A stretch of DNA of 64,000 bases from Acidobacteriaceae bacterium (lineage in GTDB: Bacteria; Acidobacteriota; Terriglobia; Terriglobales; Acidobacteriaceae), in contig JAPWKG010000008.1 in NCBI GenBank assembly GCA_028283625.1, forward strand, positions 62,001 to 126,000. The letters run 5' to 3'. The position numbers and the translations under genes were made by a program. The notes under the pieces were generated by a model. That model was given only the letters and a program-made list of their open reading frames with translations, made no database searches and was not told the origin of the DNA. Below, one piece after another: positions 34,132 through 62,535 of this stretch (within the stretch, counting starts at the first letter, position 1; each line of letters begins with the position of its first letter).

Positions 34132-34208
34132 TGGTGCGCCCGACACGATTCGAACGTGTGACCTACAGCTTCGGAGGCTGTTGCTCTATCCAGCTGAGCT
34201 ACGGGCGC
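34132..34208 (-). tRNA. tRNA-Arg, anticodon CCG
   Basis: On the minus strand a complete cloverleaf: acceptor GCGCCCG / CGGGCGC, D-arm AGCTCAGCTGGATAGAGC, anticodon stem ACAGC/GCTGT with loop CTCCGAA giving anticodon CCG (reads CGG, Arg), T-arm with GTTCGAATC, discriminator A and an encoded CCA. The plus-strand frame that runs through here is therefore not a protein. Confidence 0.97.
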
Positions 34209-45714: not shown

Positions 45715-46977
45715 GTGGCGATTATGAGAGATACACTGGGCGTTTTGCTTGCGGGTGGCGCAGGCGAGCGACTGTTTCCTTTGACGCGCGATCGCGCTAA
45801 GCCCGCGGTTCCTTTCGCAGGCCAGTACCGCATTATCGACATCACGTTGTCCAACTGCATCAACTCTGACCTGCGGCACGTCTACATCTTGACGCAGTAC
45901 AAAGCGCTTTCCTTGAACCGGCATATCCGCGAAGGCTGGGGCTCGGTTGTGGCCAACGAGCTGGGAGAGTTTGTCGAAATTCTTCCGCCGATGCAGCGTG
46001 TGTCCAAGAGCTGGTATCAAGGCACCGCCGACGCCGTGTTTCAGAACATCTATTCCATTGGCTCAGAAGAGCCGAAGTATGTGCTGATTCTCTCCGGGGA
46101 CCACATCTACAAGATGAACTACGCGCTGATGCTGGAGCAGCATGTGGCTTCGGGGGCCGATGTAACGCTGGCAACACTGCCGGTTGCGCCGAGTGAGGTC
46201 GCACAGTTCGGCGTTGTCGACGTTGCACCAAACGGCGAGGTGCGCGGCTTCGTCGAAAAGCCGAAGGAGACCAACATCCGTTCTCCGTTCAATCCGGAGA
46301 TGGTGGACGTCTCCATGGGCATCTACATCTTCAACACGGATGTGCTTTTGCCCGAGCTGGCCCGCGATGCGGAAGACCCGAGCTCCAAACACGACTTTGG
46401 GCACAACATTCTGCCGAGCCTGCTGGGGCGTTACCGCATGCATGCGTATAACTTCGTGGACGAGAACAAGCAGCATGCGCTCTATTGGCGCGATGTCGGT
46501 ACGCTCGATGCCTACTACGAAGCCAATATGGACGTGGCCGCCGTCGCTCCTGTCTTCAACCTGTATGACAAGGCGTGGCCCATGCGTTCGCGCGCCTACC
46601 AGTACCCGCCGGCCAAGTTCGTCTTTGGCGAGCCGGGCCGCACGGGCATGGCGATCAACTCCATTGTCAGCTCAGGCTCTATCGTCTCCGGCTCCGTGGT
46701 GCGAAACTCAGTGCTCTCGCATGACGTGCGTGTGAACAGCTATGCCGATGTTGATAGCTCCATCATCTTTTCGCACGTCAACATCGGCCGCCATTGCCGG
46801 ATTCGTCATGCGATCATCGATCGCGATGTGCACATTCCGGACGGTACGGTGATTGGCTACGACCCGGTGGAAGATCGCAAGAACTACTTCGTGACCGAGT
46901 CCGGTCTTACGGTGGTGACACGCGATTACTCGGTGTATGAAAACCCGGTCAGCGCCGGTTTCATGCAGCAGAAGTAG
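45715..46977 (+). CDS. glgC: Glucose-1-phosphate adenylyltransferase (ADP-glucose pyrophosphorylase)
   Basis: A 420-residue nucleotidyltransferase that makes ADP-glucose for glycogen. Signatures: GVLLAGGAGERLFPLTRDRAKPAVPFAGQYRIID (catalytic N-terminus), YQGTADAVFQN, LSGDHIYKMNY (metal Asp), 'GFVEKP', 'SMGIYIF' and 'YWRDVGTLDAYYEANMD'; a left-handed beta-helix with hexapeptide repeats (NSYADVDSSIIFSHVNIG) forms the C-terminus. GAGG at 45701-45704 suits the GTG at 45715, with an ATG nine bases later as alternative. Confidence 0.97.
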   Translation: MAIMRDTLGVLLAGGAGERLFPLTRDRAKPAVPFAGQYRIIDITLSNCINSDLRHVYILTQYKALSLNRHIREGWGSVVANELGEFVEILPPMQRVSKSWYQGTADAVFQNIYSIGSEEPKYVLILSGDHIYKMNYALMLEQHVASGADVTLATLPVAPSEVAQFGVVDVAPNGEVRGFVEKPKETNIRSPFNPEMVDVSMGIYIFNTDVLLPELARDAEDPSSKHDFGHNILPSLLGRYRMHAYNFVDENKQHALYWRDVGTLDAYYEANMDVAAVAPVFNLYDKAWPMRSRAYQYPPAKFVFGEPGRTGMAINSIVSSGSIVSGSVVRNSVLSHDVRVNSYADVDSSIIFSHVNIGRHCRIRHAIIDRDVHIPDGTVIGYDPVEDRKNYFVTESGLTVVTRDYSVYENPVSAGFMQQK

Positions 46978-59552: not shown

Positions 59553-60047
59553 TTACTGGTATCGGCGCTTGCTGCCGCCGTTGTTCATGTTGGGCGGCAT
59601 ATAGCCTTTGGGAGGCGTCGGGATACCACGCTGAGGATTGCGCATCTGCGCCTCCATCAGGCGGCGTTCACCACGCGGCCCCGTCATGACGGCGCGCTTG
59701 GAGGACTCCTGCGAAGCCGGATAGATGCGCTTGGGATTCTTCGGGTCGAGAACCACGGGCACACGCGAGCCGGGCTGCATCTGCGCACGCGGGTCGAGAC
59801 GCGAACGCATGGTGACTTCGTGCGCTGCGCTTGCGCCTGGCTCCTGCACGCGCAGGGTGATCTTGTACAGATCACCCTGAATTCTGCCGAACATCTTGAC
59901 CGGTTGCATGGAGACAAGTGTGGCGAAAACGACCGTGCCGGTAGCGTCTATCTTCTTCTGCCGGCGCTGCTCCCAGAAGAAGCGCACAAGCGTGAAGAGT
60001 GCGGCCGCCGCAATCACATAGCCAAGAATCGAGAAAAAGATCTTCAT
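59553..60047 (-). CDS. Unknown single-pass membrane protein inside the his operon
   Basis: A 164-residue protein with one N-terminal membrane helix (about 4-24, KIFFSILGYVIAAAALFTLVRFF), a basic stretch, a beta domain of about 75 residues (ATGTVVFATLVSMQPVKMFG..YKITLRVQEPG) resembling DUF3592/OB-type small domains, and a basic, Pro/Asn-rich tail (PKGYMPPNMNNGGSKRRYQ). AGGGG precedes the ATG. It lies 12 bases after hisG and 24 before hisD, on the same strand. I do not recognise a histidine-pathway role. Confidence 0.75.
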   Translation of the reverse strand: MKIFFSILGYVIAAAALFTLVRFFWEQRRQKKIDATGTVVFATLVSMQPVKMFGRIQGDLYKITLRVQEPGASAAHEVTMRSRLDPRAQMQPGSRVPVVLDPKNPKRIYPASQESSKRAVMTGPRGERRLMEAQMRNPQRGIPTPPKGYMPPNMNNGGSKRRYQ

Positions 60048-60059
60048 AGCGTCAACCCC

Positions 60060-60935
60060 TTACAGAACAACCTTGCTAAGCGGGAACTCAACGATACCTG
60101 TACCGCCGGCGTTCTTTAGCTGCGGAATGATGTCGCGCACGGTGTGCTGTTCAAGAATGGTGTTCACCGCAACCCAATTCTTATCGCGCAGCTCGCTTAC
60201 CGTCGGCGAGTTCAGCGCCGGGAGTACGTCGAGTACCGCATCGAGGTTTGCCTTCTCCACGTTGAGCATCAGGCCCACCTGGTTCTGCGCGGCCATGGCG
60301 CCATTGAGCATCAGGCTTAGCGTCTCGATCTTCTTGCGCTTGAAGTCATCTTGCCACGCAGCTTTGTTTGCAATGAGCTGCGTTTCGGACTCCATCAGCA
60401 CCTCGATGATGCGGAGCCGGTTGGCGCGTAGAGAGCTGCCTGTTTCCGTAACTTCGACAATCGCATCTGCGAGCATCGGCGGTTTGACCTCGGTTGCACC
60501 CCAGCTGAACTCAACCGTTACCGGAATATTGCGTTCAGCAAAGAAGCGCTTGGAGAACTCCACCAGTTCGGTCGCGATGGTCTTGCCTGCAAGATCTTCG
60601 GCCTTCTGGTACGGAGAGTCTTCCGGGACGGCAAGCACCCACTTCACCTTGGTGCGGCTGGCCTTGGAGTAGGTCAGGGAGGTAACGCGTTCGACGTCGG
60701 CCAGGTTCTCGAGCACCCAATCGTTGCCGGTCAATCCGGCATCCAGCGCACCGTGCTCTACGTAGCGAGCCATCTCCTGCGCTCGCACCAGCATGCACTC
60801 GATTTCGGGATCGTCGATGGAAGGGAAGTAGGAGCGGCCGCTGGCGTAAATGTTCCAGCCTGCACGCGCGAACAGCGCAAGTGTTGCTTCCTGCAAACTA
60901 CCCTTGGGAATTCCGAGCTTCAGTTTGTTGCCCAT
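60060..60935 (-). CDS. hisG: ATP phosphoribosyltransferase, long form
   Basis: A 291-residue HisG_L, which commits ATP and PRPP to histidine synthesis. '[23 protein letters not shown]', '[13 protein letters not shown]' and '[25 protein letters not shown]' mark the catalytic domains; the C-terminal ACT-like regulatory domain (about 220-291: [22 protein letters not shown]..) means it does not need HisZ and is likely feedback-inhibited by histidine. AAGGA lies before the ATG at 60935. It is 68 bases downstream of hisI. Confidence 0.97.
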
Positions 60936-61003
60936 ATGTCCTTTCACACGCATTACAGCGAAGAAAACGTTGTTGGTTCAGAAGTGTTGGCAGAGAGCCG
61001 CAG

Positions 61004-61351
61004 TTATTTGGCTGCGTCGGCAATCGGCTTCGTGAAGCAGCTCACCGTGCCTTCATGGCAGACCAGACCATCGCCTTCGACGACGACGCGGAACAGCAGC
61101 GCATCGTTGTCACAATCGGTGGAGGCAGAGACGATCTTCAGGCGATTCCCGCTGGTTTCGCCCTTCATCCAGAGCTTGTTGCGTGTGCGGGACCAGAAGG
61201 TGACAAAGCCGGTTTCGAGCGTCTTGGCATAGCTCAGCTCGTTGAGAAAGCCCAGCATCAGAACCTGTCCGGTGTTAGCGTCCTGCACGATGCCGGCGAC
61301 GAGGCCGCCAGCTTTTTCAAAGTCGATTGCGAGAGTGTCGGTTGCGGTCAT
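61004..61351 (-). CDS. hisI: Phosphoribosyl-AMP cyclohydrolase
   Basis: A 115-residue cyclohydrolase (third step). Signatures: 'DANTGQVLMLGFLNELSYAKTLETG', 'WSRTRNKLWMKGETSGN' and the metal-binding 'STDCDNDALLFRV' with 'CHEGTVSCF'. There is no fused HisE (pyrophosphohydrolase) domain, and hisE is not next to it. It is the first structural gene of the operon, preceded at 129 bases by the stop of the His-rich leader and, in between, by an intrinsic terminator. Confidence 0.96.
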   Translation of the reverse strand: MTATDTLAIDFEKAGGLVAGIVQDANTGQVLMLGFLNELSYAKTLETGFVTFWSRTRNKLWMKGETSGNRLKIVSASTDCDNDALLFRVVVEGDGLVCHEGTVSCFTKPIADAAK

Positions 61352-61412
61352 GGGGAAAGAAATCTTTCTTTTGTCTGCTGCTGTTCTGTGGTTCCGCTTC
61401 CTCGAGCGCAGC

Positions 61413-61446
61413 AAAAAGCCCGCTCGCTGATTCGCGGAGGCGGGCT
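61413..61446 (-). terminator. Putative attenuator terminator between hisL and hisI
   Basis: On the minus strand AGCCCGC and GCGGGCT (61440-61446 and 61417-61423) pair, with an inner CGC/GCG, followed directly by TTTTT (shared with 61413-61417). It ends about 60 bases upstream of hisI inside what should be its leader RNA. The stretch GAGTGGGC in the leader (61512-61519) can pair with the 5' arm (GCCCGCCTC, one bulge) and form an alternative antiterminator; that pairing is my inference. Confidence 0.75.
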
Positions 61447-61479
61447 GCTCGTGTCCTTGTTGGAAACTTCGGCTGTGCG

Positions 61480-61566
61480 CTACTGCTTGGCCGCACCGGA
61501 CAGAACCACTCGCCCACTCGCGTGGTGATGATGGTGATGACCGTGATGATGCTGGCGTGCGCTCAT
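61480..61566 (-). CDS. hisL: Histidine-rich leader peptide of the his operon
   Basis: A 28-codon frame on the minus strand starting ATG AGC GCA CGC CAG and then encoding HHHGHHHHHH, nine histidines in ten codons, and ending TAG. GGAAGGA lies just upstream. It sits between the bestrophin stop and hisI and is followed by an intrinsic terminator. In enteric bacteria the his leader has seven consecutive His codons that sense charged tRNA-His; ribosome stalling there prevents formation of the terminator. The same logic is expected here. A metal-binding peptide is a less likely alternative. TTGACA (61603-61608, minus strand) lies upstream, with a poor -10 hexamer. Confidence 0.85.
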   Translation of the reverse strand: MSARQHHHGHHHHHHASGRVVLSGAAKQ

Positions 61567-61620
61567 GTTCCTTCCACTACGCTACGGGCAATTGGCTTGC
61601 CGTGTCAATCCCGTGGCTGT

Positions 61621-62535
61621 TTACCAAAGGACGCCGTGAATGGGTTTTTCCGGCTCCGGAAAAGCGGTTTCTCCGAGGAGCTGGCGCAGATTTATCTCAA
61701 TGCTCTTGGTAATGGAGGTCATCGGAACGTCAAAGATCGTGTTGTCGAAGGGGTCTTCGAGATCGCGTCCGATCTTGTCCAGCGCCAGAAACATGAACCC
61801 AACCAGCGTGGAACCAAGCGGGGTAAACCAGCCCAGGTGTTCGACCATGCCCATGGGGAGCACCAGGCAGTAAATATTCACGAAAAGCTGCGGGAAGTAG
61901 TCGTACTGCTTCGGCATGGGGGTGTTTTTGATGCGCTCTAGGCCACCCTGCGCATCCGCCAGATCGTCAAGGTTACGATCCAACGCCTGCCAGGCAAGCG
62001 CGTCGAACCAGTTGCGCTCACGCGCCTGCTGCAGAAGTTGCCCCATGCGGAGCTGAAGCTCCAGCGGCACATTCGCACGAGTCCGCAAATAGGCTAGATC
62101 TTCGCCTGGAAGAATACGTTCCAGCTCCTCCCAGGGAGGAAGCTGGCGTAGGTGCTGTCGCAGCGCATGGACGAATGCGATCTGATGATGGACCAGATCG
62201 CGTATCAACGCATTTACCTCAGCCTGTTCTTCGGCTTTCGGCGACCGAATGATTGTGATGGCTTCGCGTGCCAGGGAGCGGGAGTTGTTCACGACCGAGC
62301 CCCAGAGCTGGCGGCCCTCCCACCAGCGCCCATAGGCCGAGTTGTTACGGAAGCCTACGACGACACCAATGGCTGAGCCGTAAAGCCCGAGGGGAACATG
62401 GGGAGAGCCGACCCACTCCCAGTACAGCAGCTTGAACGCCAGCACGATGGCGAAGTCCCACAGCAGAAGCAGAACAACAGGGAAGCCGACGTAGGCCACC
62501 ATCCGTTTGAGCTGTGGGGTGCTGGGAACGATCAT
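61621..62535 (-). CDS. Bestrophin-family anion channel
   Basis: A 304-residue membrane protein of the bestrophin/UPF0187 family (YneE-like). Signatures: 'FPVVLLLLWDFAIVLAFKLLYWEW' (first helix), 'LGLYGSAIGVVVGFRNNSAYGRWWEGRQLWGSVVNNSRSLAREA', and 'PFDNTIFDVPMTSITKSIEINLRQLLGE' at the C-terminus. Bacterial members form pentameric channels for chloride or other anions; algal bestrophins carry bicarbonate to carbonic anhydrase. Here the gene overlaps the carbonic anhydrase gene by four bases (ATGA), which suggests bicarbonate as partner ion; that is inference. Confidence 0.93.
   Translation of the reverse strand: MIVPSTPQLKRMVAYVGFPVVLLLLWDFAIVLAFKLLYWEWVGSPHVPLGLYGSAIGVVVGFRNNSAYGRWWEGRQLWGSVVNNSRSLAREAITIIRSPKAEEQAEVNALIRDLVHHQIAFVHALRQHLRQLPPWEELERILPGEDLAYLRTRANVPLELQLRMGQLLQQARERNWFDALAWQALDRNLDDLADAQGGLERIKNTPMPKQYDYFPQLFVNIYCLVLPMGMVEHLGWFTPLGSTLVGFMFLALDKIGRDLEDPFDNTIFDVPMTSITKSIEINLRQLLGETAFPEPEKPIHGVLW

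Follow-up and report, generated by a model that had tools for sequence, protein, structure and literature searches.

The his attenuator of Escherichia coli is a multi-stem scheme with more pairing segments than the acidobacterial element described here, while the trp attenuator is made of three alternative helices in the order pause, antiterminator and terminator, as is predicted for the acidobacterial element, in which, however, the regulatory codons specify histidine and the leader ORF itself contains the predicted antiterminator strand. With E. coli hisL the acidobacterial element shares two features ahead of the his operon, a short leader peptide in which His codons follow one another and a terminator of the intrinsic type; the first gene of that operon is hisG in E. 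coli and hisI, or sometimes hisG or hisZ, here. The alternative pairings of the E. coli his attenuator are laid out in the available text of PMC3896937. His attenuators are named in Proteobacteria, and new candidates in Firmicutes, in the accessible sections of PMC9413887. The Firmicutes candidates (the Bacillus cereus group, Peptostreptococcaceae and relatives, and Erysipelotrichales in PMC9413887; hisS and hisZ leaders in PMC2965389) come from comparative genomics and, in the passages available from these two papers, are likewise credited with a His-rich leader peptide and with terminator and antiterminator hairpins; by the same description they differ in belonging to another phylum, in having three to five His codons in a row and in occurring in a few lineages.

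Two described systems resemble the element at the 5′ end of the transcript. The attenuator RNA of Sinorhizobium meliloti trpL (rnTrpL) begins with the leader start codon according to an excerpt of PMC7298713, and mycobacterial polycysteine sORFs are leaderless leader-peptide attenuators according to the title of a work in the reference list of PMC13236596; both concern another amino acid, operon and phylum, and leaderlessness is a prediction in our case. As to Acidobacteria, a 2010 survey predicted attenuators in this phylum but could link almost none of them to a function, as far as the available part of PMC2965389 goes, and short leader genes close to other genes were read as aids to reinitiation in the accessible portion of PMC4833913. 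In the literature searched we recognised no paper describing a his attenuator in Acidobacteria, the surveys of Lopatovskaya 2010 and of Vitreschak 2004 (proteobacterial) being ones that might mention the phylum. The principle is known; what is new, as far as we searched, is its occurrence in this phylum, together with a start that is probably leaderless and a sequence distant from the curated family.

A histidine-rich leader ORF and a predicted terminator precede hisI

The window (the whole stretch of 64,000 nucleotides that was analysed) carries on its minus strand, between a bestrophin ORF that lies upstream and ends at 61621 and the gene hisI, a short ORF rich in His codons followed by a predicted terminator and a his operon:

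61566-61480, minus strand: leader peptide ORF, hisL-like, 28 codons from ATG to TAG, encoding MSARQHHHGHHHHHHASGRVVLSGAAKQ and kept upstream of hisI in relatives
61551-61522, minus strand: putative regulatory His codons, nine of ten codons being His (HHHGHHHHHH)
61446-61413, minus strand: predicted intrinsic terminator, with hairpin AGCCCGCCTCCGCGAATCAGCGAGCGGGCT at 61446-61417 and a U-run to 61413, 33 nt behind the leader stop codon
61351-61004, minus strand: hisI, phosphoribosyl-AMP cyclohydrolase, the first gene predicted to be regulated (Pfam PF01502, PRA-CH, E 3.9e-29)
60953-54234, minus strand: remainder of the his operon (hisG, a 164-aa ORF, hisD, hisC, hisB, hisH, hisF, hisA), each with a Pfam match except the 164-aa ORF

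An earlier note on this DNA had drawn attention to a 28-codon peptide with HHHGHHHHHH in front of hisI, and reading of the strand bore out both its coordinates and its sequence. The same note had considered nine His residues in ten improbable by chance; consistent with this, a single copy of the motif CAY x6 is present in the window and none in 100 shuffles, and the ORF scan of relatives against shuffles reported below agrees. The GC-rich hairpin with T-run which it had also placed before hisI was located at 61446-61413, and is separated from hisI by 61 nt. A generic terminator scan of the window missed this hairpin because its stem is interrupted. As regards the operon, Pfam gives only the family for hisC, hisH, hisF and hisA (an aminotransferase in the place of hisC, a glutamine amidotransferase in that of hisH, and two His_biosynth proteins as hisF and hisA), and the member within each family was taken from gene order. 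The 164-aa ORF between hisG and hisD (59553-60047, minus strand) matched no Pfam family at E 0.001.

The element stands apart from the curated family of his leaders. At the Rfam cut-off, RF00514 (His_leader) found neither the window nor any of 27 related loci, and at E ≤ 10 it had no match in positions 60900-62000, while the E. coli control scored 131.6 bits. The E. coli trp attenuator model (RF00513, Trp_leader) gave 16.5 bits on the window, below its cut-off of 41; the best-matching part was the terminator, and we took this weak match as a terminator match.

Conservation of the leader within the class

The class was sampled with 101 genomes (that of the window and 100 relatives), 84 of which have hisI. 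When a leader was defined as a short ORF upstream of hisI in which some stretch of ten residues holds four His or more, it was found in 72 of these 84 loci, namely in 49/49 of the own family, 10/10 of the same order outside the family and 13/25 elsewhere in the class. Among named contigs, all of them from near relatives and 12/80 of them exact repeats of a leader from outside the named set, 79 of 80 carried the leader, including Terriglobus roseus DSM 18391, Edaphobacter modestus and several Granulicella; the single exception (L153) is a contig that begins inside the leader. A scan for His-rich ORFs in loci with at least 450 nt upstream, which are related to one another, returned 149/160 loci, compared to 2/160 on the reverse strand and 11/3200 mononucleotide shuffles. 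Terminator-type hairpins with a T-rich tail were detected automatically in 71 of 73 leaders (L042 and L058 were missed). A stricter terminator scan missed L025, L027, L042 and L160, which were dropped, leaving a set of 135 distinct leaders. In some relatives no more than a few nucleotides separate the terminator from the approximate hisI start.

Alignment of the hisI upstream regions of Terriglobia, the check proposed in the earlier note, revealed that the His codons, the terminator and the alternative pairing of its 5′ arm are all kept; close relatives have both the His codons and the hairpin, whose lack had been named there as an objection to look for.

Twelve of the 84 class loci were devoid of a leader by the four-His definition, ten of them from families f4, f9 and f10. 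In eight of these ten (L079-L083, L085-L087), inspection by eye placed a hisF-like frame upstream of hisI, either directly or within about 120 nt; L056 and L084 have other content upstream. In the remaining two loci, L075 and L076 of family f5, the ORFs contain only three His codons, and a hairpin with a T-run was seen by eye behind them. A displacement of the leader further upstream in f4, f9 and f10 was considered and rejected for eight of the ten loci: L079-L086 were read 7.6-14.5 kb upstream (L168-L175) and scanned for ORFs that start with ATG, span no more than 45 residues and contain four His in ten, and the sole match, in L171, is by eye a tail behind another frame.

A putative leader promoter and the predicted 5′ end of the mRNA

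The best promoter-like site upstream of the leader in the window adjoins the leader gene:

61608-61603, minus strand: -35 hexamer TTGACA of the putative leader promoter (score 13.7, spacer 18)
61584-61579, minus strand: -10 hexamer TAGCGT, with 12 nt between it and the leader start codon

A generic promoter scan of the window missed this site because TAGCGT has too few consensus letters. The arrangement TTGACA-N16-18-TAnnnT was found again in most relatives. In a set of 152 leaders (the 135 distinct ones and 17 from outside the class, many of them closely related), the -10 box of the best promoter-like site lay 5-14 nt ahead of the start codon in 142, compared to 68 of 760 shuffled sequences, and the gap was 8-9 nt in 105. 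Under the same scoring, the -10 candidates of E. coli hisL lie 82 nt (best) and 38 nt (second) upstream of the ATG, as opposed to 12 nt in the window and mostly 8-9 nt in its relatives. Predicted binding of the anti-Shine-Dalgarno sequence before the leader was -1.70 kcal/mol (shuffled, -2.11), whereas 108 hisI starts gave -5.08. Bacterial transcripts usually start about 6-8 nt behind the -10 box. Given this usual distance, the position of the -10 box 5-14 nt from the start codon and the absence of a Shine-Dalgarno signal, the leader is probably leaderless or nearly so, with the 5′ end of the mRNA on the start codon or no more than a few nucleotides away from it. Leaderless genes were predicted at 13.3% on average in three Acidobacteria genomes, according to the available text of PMC3160421.

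The sequence GGAAGGA, which the earlier note had placed before the leader, is indeed present at 61575-61569. Its role as a Shine-Dalgarno sequence did not hold up as a general feature, binding being no better than in shuffled sequences across the 152 leaders. In the window itself, where the -10 gap is 12 nt and the Shine-Dalgarno-like energy -4.9, such a role is possible, and the motif would sit at the very 5′ end of the transcript.

Transcription of hisI from a start downstream of 61413 had been raised as a further objection. In 107 loci compared, the promoter-like score was higher upstream of the leader than in the gap between terminator and hisI in every case; no site in that gap scored at least 13 in any of them, while 102 of the 107 had such a site upstream of the leader.

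Predicted alternative RNA helices

The segments predicted to take part in alternative folds of the leader RNA lie as follows:

61525-61514, minus strand: predicted pause or protector hairpin CCAC-GCGA-GUGG, formed between the last His codons and the antiterminator strand, spotted by eye
61522-61512, minus strand: putative antiterminator strand CGCGAGUGGGC, inside the ORF and starting where the His run ends (RNAduplex energy of pairing to the terminator 5′ arm, -18.2 kcal/mol)
61502-61452, minus strand: predicted hairpin around the leader stop codon, pairing UGUCC (61502-61498) with GGACA (61456-61452) and, inside, GUGCG with CGCAC, spotted by eye
61445-61433, minus strand: 5′ arm of the terminator, common to terminator and predicted antiterminator

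In the window, the antiterminator would pair CGCG and GUGGGC (within 61522-61512) with GCCCGC and CGCG (within 61445-61433). The earlier note's suggestion that GAGTGGGC (61519-61512) may be the antiterminator fits this picture, in that it overlaps the strand predicted for this lineage, and an equivalent helix is conserved in relatives. The subclade of the window (L001, L002 and L013) uses a shifted register for the antiterminator and pause helices, and the best duplex of L013 is weak (-13.0). Pairings similar to the stop-codon hairpin are suggested in the tails of 37 leaders from the own genus and near it (alignment A2).

Covariation was assessed in alignment A1, which holds 56 diverse Acidobacteriaceae leaders chosen from the 135 distinct ones with a detected terminator. 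Standard pairs made up 87.9% of cells in the terminator helix, compared to at most 52.1% in slid registers; 92.7% in the antiterminator, the helix of the 5′ arm with the leader stretch, mostly of the type GUGUYRGCGG, that follows the His codons (at most 47.2% slid); and 89.8% in the pause hairpin formed by the last His codons with the antiterminator segment (at most 71.3% slid). In both cells paired and covariation score, all three helices exceeded 500 of 500 shuffles and every slid register, the slid controls leaning toward the proposed helices because these structures were proposed from the same sequences; the pause helix slid by +2 came close in covariation score (0.272 vs 0.285 unslid). 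By the number of pairs changed on both sides, the terminator beat all 500 shuffles, while 28 of them reached the antiterminator and 204 the pause helix; in further pair types, shuffles reached the antiterminator in 24/500 and the pause helix in 138/500. Sliding the antiterminator by +1 gave as many cells changed on both sides as the proposed register (16 vs 16), and sliding the pause helix gave slightly more pairs changed on both sides (4 vs 3 at -2 and +2) and more further types (10 vs 9 at +2).

Controls that replaced codons by synonymous ones showed the antiterminator to be modestly stronger than expected over the 152 leaders (mean z -1.36; 33% at p ≤ 0.05) and the effect on the local pause hairpin to be small (mean z -0.59; 10% at p ≤ 0.05). 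In folding with a ribosome footprint masked on the first four His codons rather than at the stop codon, the 5′ arm was predicted to pair more with the leader in 81/152 cases and less in three, the difference being within 0.1 in 68/152. With the full hairpin present, the terminator dominated on average in every ribosome state (mean 0.79-0.88) and dropped by more than 0.1 on stalling in just 36/152 leaders. Folding of the whole leader of the window gave z = -1.63. In the window, neither the antiterminator (p 0.47) nor the local pause hairpin (p 0.55) was better than its synonymous-codon controls, and static folding with the ribosome masked revealed no switch (0.86 with the ribosome on the first six His codons vs 0.86 at the stop).

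Leaders outside the class and joint absence with histidine biosynthesis

A covariance model, R1, was built from the 56 Acidobacteriaceae leaders and run on 396 genomes of the phylum. At E ≤ 0.01 it matched 88 of them and left 308 without a match. The phylum sample lists 44 genomes of the own family, and R1 matched all of these but G004 and G037, which have no hisI (42 of 44). R1 is weakly sensitive to divergent leaders, and missed G078 and G095, whose leaders were found by the ORF scan. It also matches E. coli hisL from end to end at 41.1 bits, indicative of a like organisation; a match to R1 alone is therefore no proof of common descent.

Outside the class, 45 genomes matched. The 17 matches with E below 3e-4 were inspected, leaving aside 28 with E from 7.6e-4 to 0.01 and loci L176-L205. 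All 17, from nine families, have a His-rich ORF (three with a GTG start, read by eye) followed by a hairpin and T-run. The gene behind the leader was hisI in 13, hisG in two and hisZ in two; the hisG and hisZ calls were made on 160-residue pieces, and the hisZ scores and one hisG score fall below the curated cut-offs because the pieces are that short. Sixteen weak R1 matches were checked as well: L223, L224 and L229 proved to be real leaders in genomes with hisI, and the other 13 had no His leader at the match, L228 having one His-containing ORF elsewhere. Judging by these sequences, the element is not confined to Terriglobia; what they establish is its presence in distant classes rather than its frequency there, which is beyond the reach of R1 because the model misses divergent leaders. 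In two genomes of family f30 (L218 and L222), the His leader precedes hisZ, suggesting a switch of the same kind before another his gene.

Seventeen of 17 sampled genomes without hisI (G003, G004, G020, G028, G031, G034, G037, G038, G041, G049, G050, G052, G061, G066, G072, G074 and G087) were also without HisG, having neither a protein match nor Pfam PF01634, whereas three of three positive controls, genomes that have hisI, matched PF01634. No His leader was found in them by R1 and an ORF scan of its matches, with the reservation that R1 misses divergent leaders. Thirteen of the 17 are at least 90% complete; G004 belongs to the own genus, has a completeness of 100% and lacks hisI and HisG. 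These genomes have either lost histidine synthesis or replaced it by something unrecognised.

Proposed mechanism and alternative explanations

From the parts of the element, their conservation, the covariation within Acidobacteriaceae and the failure to find a leader in genomes that lack hisI and hisG together, we consider it highly likely that the element is a ribosome-mediated transcription attenuator of the histidine operon. Such an attenuator is very probably real and functional; the start of the transcript, the behaviour of the ribosome and the response to histidine are inferred. The promoter would adjoin the leader gene and the mRNA begin on the leader start codon or no more than a few nucleotides from it, and because of this ribosomes would probably load without a Shine-Dalgarno sequence. 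When charged tRNA-His is ample, the ribosome would trail RNA polymerase through the His codons and across the segment behind them; the covered segment could not pair with the 5′ arm, the terminator hairpin and its U-run would form, and transcription would stop before hisI. When charged tRNA-His is scarce, the ribosome would stall in the His run and leave the segment free to pair as antiterminator with the 5′ arm of the terminator, so that polymerase would read into the his operon. The small hairpin of the last His codons with the segment is a candidate pause or protector, which might favour termination in the absence of a ribosome. In the window, a ribosome waiting at the stop codon would leave the antiterminator strand uncovered, so that the decision is tentatively placed in the race between ribosome and polymerase.

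The hairpin might instead hide the ribosome site of hisI or act as a fixed, leaky terminator, giving translational or constitutive control with no alternative fold. We regard this as improbable: the close approach of the terminator to the approximate hisI start in some relatives, and the failure of static folding to reveal a switch in the window, would suit it, whereas the T-rich tail that accompanies the hairpin in 71 of 73 leaders, the 61 nt between hairpin and hisI in the window and the conservation of an antiterminator strand matching the 5′ arm all argue against it. It is more improbable still that the ORF encodes a functional His-rich microprotein, for example a metal-binding one, with the hairpin as its own terminator. 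Relatives that have the ORF keep it open, and in and near the own genus the residues that follow the run of His are kept as well (AVSG.AK), as would be expected of a working peptide; however, the segment behind the His run coincides with the RNA pairing segments, sequence outside the run varies freely between families, and no promoter-like site from which hisI could be separately transcribed was seen between terminator and gene in the 107 loci scored. The ORF, moreover, precedes his genes in the inspected loci and was found in none of the genomes without hisI and hisG.

Least credible to us is regulation by a T-box, a protein repressor or another riboswitch, the His-rich ORF being incidental. 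Firmicutes his genes are under T-box and HisR control according to the available text of PMC9413887, so that such regulation has a precedent; against it, no Rfam family reached its cut-off in the window except a distant tRNA, nor did any in 27 acidobacterial loci, and an incidental ORF is difficult to reconcile with its occurrence in 149/160 loci vs 11/3200 shuffles.

Returning to ribosome-mediated attenuation, a broader proposition is that Acidobacteriota ancestrally possessed a his attenuator on a leaderless transcript, with the 70S ribosome loading at the mRNA 5′ end just behind polymerase and the antiterminator located in the codons after the His run, and that this element, outside the curated Rfam family, was inherited, moved and lost within the phylum. 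We find the case for and against this evenly balanced, since no more than 17 genomes are confirmed outside the class and R1 gives no measure of the element's frequency there. If true, attenuation would provide a concrete mechanism of amino acid control for a common soil phylum and would mean that transcription and translation are closely coupled in these bacteria; with a leaderless start, as predicted, one can put to the test how ribosome loading is timed to polymerase in attenuation without a 5′ UTR.

Additional observations

A search of the own genome for Trp leaders by TGGTGGTGG was too unspecific to be used, yielding 114 matches vs 101 for the reversed control. The second His run of the genome (L031) lies inside longer overlapping frames and is no leader. 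One leader, L102, is filed under a Verrucomicrobia record name and has DNA identical to that of the acidobacterial L016, and the record name is probably wrong. ARAGORN called a second tRNA-Arg (anticodon tcg) at 46225-46308 on the plus strand, which is below the cut-off of the Rfam tRNA model; the tRNA-Arg at 34132-34208 was found by both ARAGORN and the Rfam tRNA model, alone in this among the tRNA-Arg calls.
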